NCBI RefSeq assembly: GCF_007115095.1
Contig: NZ_SULH01000004.1
Coordinates: forward strand, 62,001-126,000
Length of the DNA stretch: 64,000 nt
Source of the DNA: Levilactobacillus enshiensis
Lineage (GTDB): Bacteria > Bacillota > Bacilli > Lactobacillales > Lactobacillaceae
Direction: 5' to 3'
Shown here: in pieces, positions 930 to 49,932 of the stretch
Layout: every line of letters begins with the position of its first letter
Numbering within the stretch: position 1 is the first letter of the stretch
The notes under the pieces: model-generated
The model's input: only the letters and a program-made list of their open reading frames with translations
Database searches by the model: none
What the model was told of the DNA's origin: nothing
Program-made: the position numbers and the translations under genes

Positions 930-1165
930 TGAAAGCGCAGTCATAGTGAATAGTAACTGGTTGCTTCATCCTAGAGAGCTAACGGTCGGTGGAAGTTAGT
1001 GGGAGTTGCCAGTGAATCCGCCACTTAGCGTTTGTTTCCGTTCGAAGGAGACACGGTGAGACGTTATACTCGCAGAGGACACAATCATTTTTGTGTCAAG
1101 TTGGGTGGTACCACGTTAATAAACTAACGTCCCATAACCTGGATTAACCGGGTTATGAGGCGTTT
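930..1165 (+). promoter_or_regulatory. T-box riboswitch with a serine (UCC) specifier
   Basis: The leader has the canonical order of a T-box. The AG box AGAGAGC is at 973-979, the specifier arm contains GTGAA followed by TCC at 1017-1019 (a serine codon), and the conserved T-box core GGGTGGTACCACG is at 1103-1115. A terminator hairpin follows, with arms at about 1126-1139 and 1150-1164 and a T-run. Uncharged tRNA-Ser is expected to pair with the specifier and the T-box to stabilise the antiterminator and raise serS expression. The specifier matches the downstream gene, which supports the call. Confidence 0.93.
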
Positions 1166-46761: not shown

Positions 46762-47616
46762 ATGCAATCAGAAAAAATTGCCATCTTAGTGGACTCCTGT
46801 TCGGATGTCCCGGCAGCCGTGCTTGAGGCGGCTGACATGGCTTTAATGCCAATGAACGTCATCTTTCGTGATCGGGTCTACGAAGACCGCGTCACGATTA
46901 CGCCGACTGAGTTTTATCGTCGCCAAGCCACTGAAAAAGCTACCACAGCTAGCCCAACGGGGAAACGAATCGTTGAAGCGTTGGAGCGAATCCAGGCTTC
47001 CGGGTACACCCACGTCATTGCTATCTGTATTTCGGCGGCCCTTTCTGGCACCTACCAAGAAACCCAATTATTAGCCGCTGACACGCCGTTGACGGTCCAC
47101 GTGGTCAACACTTGCAGTGTGGGAATTGGCAGTGGTTTTGCGGCCATTTATGCGGCCTCACTGCGGGCAGCAGGGAAGTCCTTCGCAGATATTGTTAGTG
47201 AAGTTGAACGGGTGACTGCGCAGACCAAGGTTTTTTTCTACGTCCCTTCATTAAAGTACCTTCAAGCGGGCGGTCGAATCGGTAAAGTGGCCGGCATGGC
47301 TGGGACTTTACTGAACGTTAAGCCAATTATTTCTTGTGATCCTGAAGGTATCTACTACCCGATTGCGAAGGTTCGCGGCGAAAAACGGACGATTCATAAG
47401 TTGTTAGCACTCGTTAATGATGCCATTGGAGATGCTAAACATGTCAATGTGGCGGTCTGTGACGGCGTGGCACCGGAGTTGCGGGAACACGTGCTCGAAC
47501 AGTTAAAAGCAACTCACCCACAGGTTGAAAATTGGTATGCTGGCGATGTTTCACCTGCTTTAGGTGTCCACACCGGACCAGGACTGATTGGGGTTGGGGT
47601 GCAGGTGCTGGACTAA
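46762..47616 (+). CDS. DegV family fatty acid-binding protein
   Basis: This 284-residue cytoplasmic protein starts with the family segment KIAILVDSCSDVP and has the conserved SPTGKRIVEAL, ISAALSGTYQ and CSVGIGSGF regions that line the fatty-acid pocket. DegV (FakB-like) proteins bind fatty acids and present them to the kinase FakA. ATG 46762 follows AGGAG and GAGG. It is a single gene, and a minus-strand small RNA gene lies just downstream in convergent orientation. Confidence 0.92.
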   Translation: MQSEKIAILVDSCSDVPAAVLEAADMALMPMNVIFRDRVYEDRVTITPTEFYRRQATEKATTASPTGKRIVEALERIQASGYTHVIAICISAALSGTYQETQLLAADTPLTVHVVNTCSVGIGSGFAAIYAASLRAAGKSFADIVSEVERVTAQTKVFFYVPSLKYLQAGGRIGKVAGMAGTLLNVKPIISCDPEGIYYPIAKVRGEKRTIHKLLALVNDAIGDAKHVNVAVCDGVAPELREHVLEQLKATHPQVENWYAGDVSPALGVHTGPGLIGVGVQVLD

Positions 47617-47651
47617 AGGCCGAGTGATTGGCCAGCTCAGACATGAAGGAA

Positions 47652-47794
47652 AACAAAAAGCCACGATTCACATCGCGGCTTGAGGGGGGATACGAGCAGG
47701 AATAGATACTTTGGGGGAGTGCTAAGTTCTGCTCGTAGAAAGAGTAATAAGAATTTGGTACAACCGGGTTAGCAACGTCTCTGGTTACTAACTT
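47652..47794 (-). ncRNA. candidate small RNA 1 with C-rich loop (paralogue of the one at 49281)
   Basis: Downstream of a clear promoter, the minus strand carries a 5' hairpin (GTTAGTAAC/GTTGCTAAC) and a central stem TACGAGCAG/CTGCTCGTA whose loop exposes GCACTCCCCCAAA. A second C-run (ATCCCCCCTC) follows, then an intrinsic terminator AAGCCGCGAT/ATCGTGGCTTTTT. There is no start codon with a ribosome binding site. The same order, promoter spacing and loop motif recur at 49281-49463. Firmicute sRNAs such as RsaE and LhrC use C-rich loops to pair with Shine-Dalgarno regions, so a similar action is inferred. Confidence 0.7.
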
Positions 47795-47800
47795 GATTGT

Positions 47801-47829
47801 AGTGTAACGCCTGATGCGATTAGGTGCAA
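47801..47829 (-). promoter_or_regulatory. promoter of candidate small RNA 1
   Basis: -35 TTGCAC (47829-47824), 17-base spacer, -10 TACACT (47806-47801), both on the minus strand. Confidence 0.7.
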
Positions 47830-47985
47830 TTGATTGGTTTCATAAATTTACTAATAACGGCGAAACCCCTTGATAGTCTACTAAATTAACTCATTTTACG
47901 AACTAAAAGTAATCGGCTACCAGTCAGGTAAGCTTTAAAATTCGCCAACTCTGTAAGTCGTTAAAAGCGTGATAGAATACGATTT

Positions 47986-48018
47986 GACGTCACTGTAGGG
48001 GATACGGTGGCGTCTTTT
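47986..48018 (+). terminator. orphan intrinsic terminator
   Basis: GACGTCACTGT pairs with ACGGTGGCGTC and is followed by T5. No plus-strand gene precedes it after the DegV gene, which ended 370 bases earlier. Confidence 0.75.
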
Positions 48019-48034
48019 TAGTTGAACAAAATGA

Positions 48035-48062
48035 CTGACAACTCATTTTTAAATCGTATAAT
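48035..48062 (+). promoter_or_regulatory. promoter 400 bases upstream of the DedA gene
   Basis: -35 CTGACA (48035-48040), 16-base spacer, -10 TATAAT (48057-48062). The transcript would have a leader of about 400 bases before DedA, with no supported gene in it; a tiny AAGGAG-GTG-stop sequence occurs near 48066-48080. Confidence 0.55.
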
Positions 48063-48472
48063 AGAAGGAGAAACAGTGTAGGGACGGCTATTGACGACAC
48101 TTTCTGGATAATGACGGGCGGTGAGCGTAATGCCGATACTTTTGGGGTAATGGCTGAGCAAGTTTGCGACCGAATATCTCACGAAAGTAGACTTTGGTGG
48201 TGAACTGATGGTCGGTGAAAAATAGCAGAGTTACCTAAAACGATGGTGGGTGATGATTAAAATTGGGATTAAAGGCCGCTGATTAATCGTCAAAAACTAG
48301 TGTGATTACCCGTTAATTATTCATACTGATTCCACTATAAAAGCTAGTCATCATGGGCGATTTGCCGTCATGAATTAAGTGAAATGAAGTGGGAAATTAT
48401 CGTATTCTCATCAAATTTCAGGCGTAATGCCAATTCAAATTTAGAAAAAAATACCGTGGAGGAATAATTAGT

Positions 48473-49108
48473 GTGACTTTATTCGTAATGATTTGGAATA
48501 TTATTTGGCACCCGTTAGCAGTATTAGTACCGCTGACGAATCAATTGGGGACAGGCATCTATCCGCTCCTTTTTGCCTTGATTTTCCTGGAATCGGGGAT
48601 GCTGATCTTCTCCTTTATCCCGGGGCAATCGCTGCTATTTATGGTGGGATCAATTGCGGCGAACCCGCACTCACAGCTGAACATCTGGCTACTCGTTTTG
48701 ATGTTTACGTTGGCGGCTACTGTGGGTTCAGCGGTCAAGTACCTGACCACGTTGCGGTGGGGAAAGCATCAAGAGCGCTTGATTCGAAAACTGCCGGATG
48801 ACAAAGTTGCTAAGGCGACGGCAGTGTTTAACCGAAATCAAGACCAAACCCTGTTGATTGGCCGGTTTATCCCATTTGTGGGGCTTTTCTTACCGATTAT
48901 TGCGGGGACGACCGACATGAATTGGCGACAGTTTCGCTACTATAATTTTCTGGGTAGCTTGATCTGGGTTAGCAGTTGCTGTGCCGTAGGCTATTTCTTT
49001 GGAAATACCCCCTTTATCCGTAGCAATTTCACCTGGTTATTCTTAGTTCTCTTGGCCGTTCCATTCTTGTTTGGCCAGGTACGCCATGCGATTCAGCGGC
49101 GCGGTTAG
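48473..49108 (+). CDS. DedA family membrane protein
   Basis: This 211-residue protein has about five to six hydrophobic segments with the family patterns PGQSLLFMVGSIAA and GRFIPFVGLFLPIIAG. DedA proteins are thought to move lipids such as undecaprenyl phosphate or phospholipids across the membrane and support envelope homeostasis. The GTG start at 48473 follows GGAGG at about 10 bases. The two candidate small RNA genes flank it on the opposite strand. Confidence 0.9.
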   Translation: MTLFVMIWNIIWHPLAVLVPLTNQLGTGIYPLLFALIFLESGMLIFSFIPGQSLLFMVGSIAANPHSQLNIWLLVLMFTLAATVGSAVKYLTTLRWGKHQERLIRKLPDDKVAKATAVFNRNQDQTLLIGRFIPFVGLFLPIIAGTTDMNWRQFRYYNFLGSLIWVSSCCAVGYFFGNTPFIRSNFTWLFLVLLAVPFLFGQVRHAIQRRG

Positions 49109-49116
49109 ACGTGGGA

Positions 49117-49195
49117 CTTAAACTAGGCAGCTTGGTGAAACTGGTCGGCAGATCTGGGTTGGAACAGCGCGAATGCAGATCAATCCTGGGATGAG
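49117..49195 (-). repeat. family A element, decayed remnant
   Basis: AAACTAGGCAGCTTGG, then GTCGGCAGATCTGGG and GGAACAGCGCGAA correspond, in order, to the reverse-oriented family A copies at 14808 and 60770. The match is partial and no end is preserved. Confidence 0.5.
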
Positions 49196-49231
49196 GCAGG
49201 TAGGTCAATTTTCGTTTTTTAAAAGAAAAAG

Positions 49232-49271
49232 AGCCGCTAATTTTCCCGTGAAGATGGGGATTAGCGGTTTT
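49232..49271 (+). terminator. intrinsic terminator after the DedA gene
   Basis: GCCGCTAAT with CCC pairs with GGG and ATTAGCGG, followed by TTTTG. Confidence 0.8.
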
Positions 49272-49280
49272 GTGTCTAAA

Positions 49281-49428
49281 GAAAGGGCCTCGAGTAACAT
49301 GCGGATTACTCGAGGCCTTATTTAGGAATCTGTAAATAAATCACTTGTTTTGGGGGGAGTGCATCTATAGACAGTGATTCCTATCATCTATCACAGTGCT
49401 TAAGGTCAGAACGTATCACGAACTAACT
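49281..49428 (-). ncRNA. candidate small RNA 2 with C-rich loop (paralogue of the one at 47652)
   Basis: The minus strand has a 5' hairpin GTTAG-TT-CGT/ACG-TT-CTGAC and a central stem AATCACT/AGTGATT whose loop exposes GCACTCCCCCCAAAA. It ends with a strong terminator, GGCCTCGAGTAA/TTACTCGAGGCC, and a T-rich tail. It aligns with candidate 1 in promoter, first hairpin, C-rich loop and end, although the stems have different sequences. No coding frame is supported in it. Confidence 0.72.
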
Positions 49429-49434
49429 ATGGTT

Positions 49435-49463
49435 ATCATAGCGGCTCAACAGGTCGTTCGCAA
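49435..49463 (-). promoter_or_regulatory. promoter of candidate small RNA 2
   Basis: -35 TTGCGA (49463-49458), 17-base spacer, -10 TATGAT (49440-49435). The distance from the -10 to the conserved GTTAG matches candidate 1 within one base. Confidence 0.7.
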
Positions 49464-49932
49464 GCAAACTGTGACTCTTTAAAAACATTGGGTAGAAAAA
49501 AGGAAACACCCCTTGAATGGTTAGGTTCAAACCTTATAAATGAGACTGAATGACCTGTGAACTACCAAGCCATTTCGGTGATTTATTGCTGGAAGTTTAA
49601 TGAAAACGGTACAAAAAAGGCTAAATTACAATCGGGGTATACGGGTTACGGTATGATATTAGCAGGACGATTGAATAAATCAAGTCGGCGAATCCCTTGC
49701 AATGGTAGCGTTTCATCCACCATAATAGCGCTACTTATGTCACGATAAATAAAATTAAATATTATATATTAAAATTATTATAAAACGTGCAGTTTGCACA
49801 TTAACCCGTCATTTCTCTAAAAGTGTGAGGATTTGTCCCGCTTTCCTCCCTTTTTCGAGGCGAAGTCATTTATCTTTCGCTAACTTTCTAGTAGACTACC
49901 TTTAGAATCGTTTTTCATGTAGGAGGGTAAAC
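49464..49932 (+). other. 469-base intergenic stretch before nox
   Basis: A 63-codon open frame at 49557 lacks a ribosome binding site and is not supported. The right part is AT-rich and should hold the nox promoter; no clear -35/-10 pair was identified. Confidence 0.35.

Follow-up and report, generated by a model that had tools for sequence, protein, structure and literature searches.

C-rich small RNAs (sRNAs) and a G-rich sponge which binds them are already known in Bacillales, where RosA of Bacillus subtilis acts as a G-rich sponge of the C-rich RoxS and FsrA, and where RsaI of Staphylococcus aureus has G-rich regions that bind C-rich sRNAs (PMC8216469). LhrC1-5 of Listeria monocytogenes (Rfam RF00616) are multicopy sRNAs with UCCC motifs in their loops and linker (PMC4132741), and the streptococcal csRNAs of the CiaRH regulon, also present in several copies, combine anti-Shine-Dalgarno and anti-AUG sequences with a CiaR box at the promoter (TTTAAG-N5-TTTAAG) and a conserved nonamer, [A/C]UCCUAAA[A/C] (PMC3091779). 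In lactobacilli, which lack Hfq (PMC4132741), sRNAs are little described, with only one earlier report according to a 2021 article on L. casei (PMC8220740). Here we describe two predicted sRNA genes, units A and B, on the minus strand of a 64,000-nucleotide stretch of Levilactobacillus enshiensis (assembly GCF_007115095.1, contig NZ_SULH01000004.1, positions 62,001 to 126,000 of the forward strand), hereafter the window, together with a third C-rich sRNA, unit C, and two G-rich counterparts, an intergenic RNA called D and the loop of a terminator behind an spx gene.

With a probability of about 0.68, A and B are trans-acting C-rich sRNAs of Levilactobacillus which pair with G-rich RNA loops, those of D and of the spx terminator. 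What can be read from the genomes themselves are the two genes, their conservation and the invariance both of their core and of the complementary sites. The C-rich core is retained in 33/33 loci of A and 33/33 loci of B (the 33-genome alignments were limited to loci with the core pattern, which all listed loci of both units had), and the loss of this loop in homologues, which would have spoken against the original prediction of a conserved C-rich loop, was not seen. Within the genus, to which the searches for D and the spx element were confined, the 16-base D motif CTTGGGGGAGTGCTAA, antisense to TTAGCACTCCCCCAA of unit A, is invariant in 30/30 loci from 28 genomes, and an exact copy of the 15-base element CTCGGGGGAGTGCTG of the spx terminator loop was found in 34 of 35 genomes, the one without it being 72% complete.

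Several traits of the described systems recur at these loci. The UCCC motifs of LhrC are found in A, where the loop reads CUCCCCC and the linker UCCCCCCUC, and unit C has two C-rich loops; an anti-Shine-Dalgarno mode of action as in LhrC, proposed from the start, is plausible. The RF00616 model gives a weak full-length match to unit C, at 25.3 bits well under the gathering score of 110, whereas A and B have no match to it at E ≤ 5 and share a seed of their own, GCACUCCCCC. As in the csRNAs, the core of the unit C family, TTTTCATTTTACTCCYCCAAAG, has both anti-Shine-Dalgarno and anti-AUG sequences. Unlike in the csRNAs, the 150 bases ahead of each of A, B and C in the window's genome contain no exact CiaR box, the nonamer occurs in 0/33 A and 0/33 B loci, and the anti-AUG is lacking in A and B, where CAT stands at most 8 bases before the core in 1/33 and 0/33 loci, respectively. 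Compared with Rfam, A and B matched no family, either at the gathering score in the window, where the only match is a T-box leader far off (931-1137, plus strand, 109 bits, above the gathering score), or at E ≤ 5 in loci L003 and L033. This also separates them from RsaE/RoxS, RsaE being an Rfam family.

On the G-rich side, D resembles RosA in having regions complementary to C-rich sRNAs and may, by this likeness, act as a sponge; it differs in lying beside an AgrA-like gene, in having separate sites for two sRNAs and in showing no cre-like site (at most 2 mismatches) upstream of it in the window's genome. Its putative role also recalls the binding of C-rich sRNAs by the G-rich regions of RsaI. 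RNAIII of Staphylococcus aureus is agr-linked, and D likewise adjoins an AgrA-like gene; in contrast to RsaI and RNAIII, the likely strand of D, by reading, has no C-run like those of A to C.

Architecture and distribution of the C-rich RNAs

Unit A with its promoter occupies 47654-47829 (minus strand, as do all features of A and B below). The promoter TTGCAC-17-TACACT (47801-47829) was recognised by reading the sequence and in the 33-genome alignment, where its -35 and -10 elements and an upstream AACCAATCAATTG-like block are largely conserved; the -10 pattern fails in locus L028 and the end pattern in L003, L019, L030 and L064. The predicted RNA of about 143 nt (47654-47796), delimited by fold, conservation and a model which scores its own sequence at 159 bits by construction, folds better than 200/200 dinucleotide shuffles (z -5.48). 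Its 5' hairpin (47768-47792) is variable between species yet paired in the folds of 32 loci, where the arms differ in sequence and keep pairing, as in GUUAGUAAC/GUUGCUAAC, GUUAAUAGC/GCUGUUAAC and GGUCAACAAG/CUUGUUGACC. The stem of the central stem-loop (47692-47736) is nearly invariant, with double changes in 0/20 consensus pairs, and for that reason allows no test of covariation. It presents the C-rich core GCACTCCCCCAAAGTA (47707-47722), complementary to both D and the spx terminator, in which GCACTCCCCCAAAGT shows no variation across the 24 aligned rows (23 loci and the window copy, identical sequences removed). The same alignment shows no variation in CCCCCTCAAG, part of a second, single-stranded C-rich stretch TATCCCCCCTCAAG (47679-47692), and a terminator scan places the intrinsic terminator at 47654-47681.

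Unit B, which with its promoter spans 49286-49463, is built along the same lines. The promoter TTGCGA-17-TATGAT (49435-49463) was found by consensus scan and by reading; its -35 is overlapped by a block, GTCACAGTTTGCTTGC (49460-49475), which is largely conserved across the 33 aligned genomes and is possibly an activator site. The RNA of about 147 nt predicted from fold and conservation (49283-49431) also outdoes 200/200 dinucleotide shuffles (z -5.47), and its central stem-loop (49324-49382; fold and alignment) holds the C-rich core GCACTCCCCCCAAAACAAGTG (49342-49362), identical with its flank in 31/33 loci, the remainder being two variants. In the terminator (49286-49317), 11 of the 13 stem pairs have changed on both sides with pairing kept, in an alignment of 29 of 30 rows from which L052 was excluded, around an invariant loop ATCCGCATGT which may act as a second functional loop. 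The csRNA nonamer contains UCCUAAA as its inner part, and this heptamer occurs in 18/33 loci of unit B (49342-49382 in the window), probably by chance because it is located at the end of the central stem. A 7-codon frame within the unit, ATGCACTCC...TGA, is broken in L057 and absent from L066.

Much of the original prediction for this region, made from the window's letters, agrees with these data. Both minus-strand units have the promoters described for them, although a consensus scan accepts only that of B, and the 7 promoter-like sites in the region are no excess over shuffles (mean 5.2). The 5' hairpins start with GTTAG as stated, 8 bases past the -10 in A and 7 in B, both intrinsic terminators are in place, and reading showed no coding frame with a recognisable ribosome site in either unit. 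The exposure of the motif in the central loop is correct for the C-run with its flanking A's, whereas the ACU of A or CACU of B is weakly paired in the predicted folds. What did not hold was the description of A and B as duplicates: they have a 10-base seed in common and homology beyond it could not be demonstrated. B is not found by a blastn search with A, nor by the model of A at E ≤ 10; A and B as a single homologous family were for this lack of alignable homology rejected. Exact GCACTCCCCCNAA occurs at only two sites in the 3.07-Mb genome, which are units A and B, and matches with at most 2 mismatches are not above chance in the window (5 against a mean of 5.06).

The placement of the pair in lactobacilli at large also has to be narrowed, as among the genomes searched only those of Levilactobacillus yielded A and B, and it is unit C that represents the wider family. 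By blastn, each is present in 33/35 Levilactobacillus genomes and in 0/23 outside the genus; the two genomes without either are G006 (72% complete) and G017. Matches to GCACTCCCCCNAA do exist in 37 of 372 non-genus Lactobacillaceae genomes. As candidate copies of A or B these were rejected after inspection of 22 of the 37 surroundings (L071-L092), where none was recognised by eye, L086 being ambiguous; 13 of these 22 matches sit in open frames of at least 190 codons. Near position 1501 of L083 (G414), another C-run, TTCCCCCAAA, and a hairpin plus T-run come after GCACTCCCCCAAA; this locus may represent a C-rich sRNA of a different genus that shares the core of A and B. A scan of named genomes with the unit A pattern returned 30 stretches, of which 27 belong to Levilactobacillus, one to a Lactobacillus sp., one to a metagenome-assembled genome (MAG) of an uncultured Lactobacillus and one to a Clostridia MAG.

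Unit C surfaced while partners of the A/B core were being sought, at G000:C8:15608-15848 on the minus strand, and is present in 35/35 Levilactobacillus genomes. Its alignment (30 loci and L170, from 36 places found) shows a pair of hairpins, whose loops read ACTCCCCCAAAGT and ATCCCCCAAT, together with the linker CTTACTCTTTGGCC and a terminator. Across the family, a search at E ≤ 0.01 found it in 130 of 397 genomes, 25 of them Levilactobacillus. The core is covered by the match in 75 of the 372 non-genus genomes, from ten further Lactobacillaceae genera as counted by reading, and the other non-genus matches are short edge matches, likely due to chance. TTTTCATTTTACTCCTCCAAAGT or a close variant was seen in 20/20 non-genus stretches fetched, and one genus (g55) has a CCCCC form of the core; an ideal start site, GGAGGAG-TAAAATG, would be complementary to this core. 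Homologues were aligned in 25 of 26 rows, L192 being excluded; eight of their loci, compared with Rfam, gave five matches, all below gathering score and unrelated in kind.

Three observations concern relatives and surroundings of unit C. A repeat, TTCACA-N5-TTCACA, which resembles a response-regulator (Pho-like) box, lies upstream of homologues L250, L252, L254, L262, L263, L274 and L276 from two other genera, one copy with one mismatch, these seven having been preselected because the repeat had been noticed there; in the window's genome, the patterns used revealed no cre, CiaR or Pho-like box upstream of A, B, C or D. In L265, L266 and L279, all of one genus, a relative of unit C has a 5' hairpin, a TACTCCCACTTTTTT linker and a core hairpin. 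Finally, a lipoprotein-like gene of G023 (L169, L298, L322; G023:C1:224122) has a start site, TACTTTGGGGGAGTAACATGAAACG, which is a near-complement of the unit C core.

Between A and C, too, the demonstrable link is the seed. The model of A aligned with unit C of G000 over a 14-base seed only (9.9 bits, E 4.2) and with two unit C homologues lengthwise and weakly (L275, 12.6 bits, E 1.2; L250, 11.6 bits, E 1.9), and its 18.1-bit match in L265 (E 0.08) lies away from the core of that locus. Conversely, the core model of the unit C family matches A over 14 bases (10.2 bits, E 0.0019 in 2.4 kb with filters off) and has no convincing match in B, and with default filters it has no match anywhere in the window. 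Convergence on the seed and a very old duplication both fit the data for A, B and C.

G-rich counterparts in D and in the spx terminator

In all 28 loci examined, D lies directly upstream of a gene for an AgrA-like response regulator with a LytTR domain. Its region is about 70% identical outside the nearest relatives, and a promoter-like block, TTGACG ... CATGKTAAAGT, is conserved ahead of D on the G-rich strand. Where both ends could be located, in 26 loci, the distance from this block to the T-run is 298-346 bases, D being predicted as an RNA of about 300-350 nt. In five folds inspected, the G-run stands in a hairpin loop. Some species have a second G-rich site in D, and GCAATGAGCTGAAGAGTAAG of D complements the unit C linker. 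Among the 28 genomes with D, sequences of A were taken from 27 and those of C from 24, and the best D window for A was the invariant motif in 27/27 and the best window for the unit C linker was AAGAGTAAG in 23/24, the exception being G014. The spx element sits behind a gene of the Spx/ArsC family in 30/30 loci read (ArsC family by Pfam in one), and the stem around it has undergone small changes with pairing kept.

Duplex energies were compared with those of 300 shuffled sites. The A-D duplex reaches -36.0 kcal/mol and that of the unit C linker with D -31.5 kcal/mol, each equalled by 1/300 shuffles, and the A-spx duplex reaches -33.1 kcal/mol (5/300). At the site in D which fits the linker, 43/300 shuffles were as good for B and 234/300 for A. 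Ranked against their shuffles in this way, A is the best-fitting partner both of the D motif and of the spx loop.

Several results weigh against the pairing of A and B with D and spx. The energies ignore the cost of opening structure, and the duplexes of B are weaker than those of A, with 9/300 shuffles as good for B-D and 45/300 for the still weaker B-spx; unit C does no better than chance with the GGGGGAG motif site of D (93/300) or with the spx loop (202/300). The unit A core has TTAGCACTCCCCCAA in 25/33 copies and deviates in its first two or three bases in the remaining 8. The near-complete genome G017 has C, D and the spx element and, by blastn, neither A nor B, while D itself is found by blastn in only 28/35 genomes; G023, one of the negatives, has the D motif with one change (L141). 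Scans of the D region of L207 gave no terminator-like site on either strand, a result in which we believe that the stem rule absorbs the T-run of D, and a single promoter-like site, downstream of D. Lastly, near-complements of the 13-base core are not in excess in the window's own genome (29+26, against 29+26 for the reversed pattern), and claims about targets therefore rest on conservation; of five other genomes, G015 is slightly below its control (44 against 48) and G013, G003, G028 and G023 are above theirs.

Possible roles and competing explanations

In the mechanism that we favour, A and B would each expose the C-run in the loop of the central hairpin, so that GCACUCCCCC(C)A can pair with G-rich RNA loops, and the first contacts would be made between this loop and the G-run loops of D and of the spx terminator. 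D would titrate A and B at one site and unit C at another, much as RosA acts on RoxS and FsrA. At spx, pairing may alter the stability of the RNA, or the spx RNA may serve as a decoy, protection of the 3' end being another option. Free A, B and C might in turn block G-rich ribosome-binding sites, possibly including that of a sugar symporter.

In the strongest competing explanation, to which we would give about a third of the weight of the pairing with G-rich loops, A and B would block ribosomes in the ordinary way of LhrC and the csRNAs, mainly at Shine-Dalgarno sites, with D and the spx RNA as further targets and not as sponges. It draws on start sites: TTTGGGGGAG lies 2-10 bases ahead of ATG in 100 matches covering 35/35 genomes of the genus (36 of them being unit C antisense), against 33 matches in 24/35 genomes for TTTGGAGGGG, a Shine-Dalgarno-like control of the same composition. 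Among such sites, that of the sugar symporter gene (MFS_2 in the one tested), TTTGGGGGAGG, is accompanied upstream by a cre-like TGTAARCGGTTAC in the 7 genomes read, and its duplexes are equalled by 6/300 shuffles for A, 24/300 for B and 38/300 for C, which makes it a lead, not a proof. Against it stands the GCACU of A and B, at the place where unit C carries UUUUACU in its mimic of a ribosome site. D and spx, which are not ribosome sites, match this GCACU exactly, and in the start-site listing the full GGGGGAGTGC is confined to three genomes (L317-L319), where it precedes a 3-codon frame, and to G029, where it is A antisense.

It is rather improbable that transcription of D uses the other strand, which would make it another C-rich sRNA beside an agr-like operon, in the manner of staphylococcal RNAIII. 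The reverse complement of D does show TTAGCACTCCCCCAAG, that of the invariant motif, and CTTACTCTT, in the order found in unit C, and a transcript from that strand would diverge from the AgrA-like gene in all 28 loci; however, a custom script placed a hairpin and T-run on the G-rich strand at 28/28 loci, against 0/28 for the C-rich strand, and it is the G-rich strand which carries the conserved promoter-like block.

The genes around A and B bear on a cis-acting role. On the plus strand lie degV (46762-47616), convergent with unit A, and, between the units, a dedA-like gene with a VTT domain (48473-49108), both taken from the list of open reading frames and a domain search and both outside the system; since degV and dedA are convergent with the units, no gene on the same strand lies downstream of A or B. 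That the units flank dedA, as first described, is true of the window and, by tblastn, of most loci tested, whereas tblastn did not find dedA between the units in L. brevis ATCC 14869, zymae, acidifarinae, spicheri, suantsaii and namurensis, which indicates that the pair is not tied to it. From the end of degV to 47986-48014 (window 47617-48014), the scan showed no plus-strand terminator, and the degV message could traverse all of unit A in antisense. That A and B are leaders, attenuators or mere terminators of their neighbours, as their location in the gaps beside degV and dedA and their strong hairpins with T-runs might suggest, is highly improbable given the absence of a same-strand gene downstream, a promoter, 5' hairpin and invariant loop which exceed a terminator, and their persistence in several species where dedA was not found between them.

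If A and B do pair with G-rich loops, the parts may form a larger circuit, which we put forward tentatively, at somewhat less than even odds and from sequence evidence: the genus-specific A and B and the older, more widespread C would be collected by D, an agr-linked sponge with two sites, the spx terminator loop would have a site for A and B built in, and loop-loop pairing would couple cell-cell signalling, the Spx stress response and control by C-rich sRNAs. As far as the literature was searched (some results were visible in part), no paper on these RNAs was found, and the A and B of Levilactobacillus, the wider lactobacillus core, the agr-linked partner with two sites and the spx terminator site appear to be new. 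Conservation has here singled out sRNAs, a candidate for their sponge and, in the spx terminator, a pairing site that does not vary, all directly testable in a food bacterium; an sRNA site inside a terminator loop would, if true, be an unusual kind of target.

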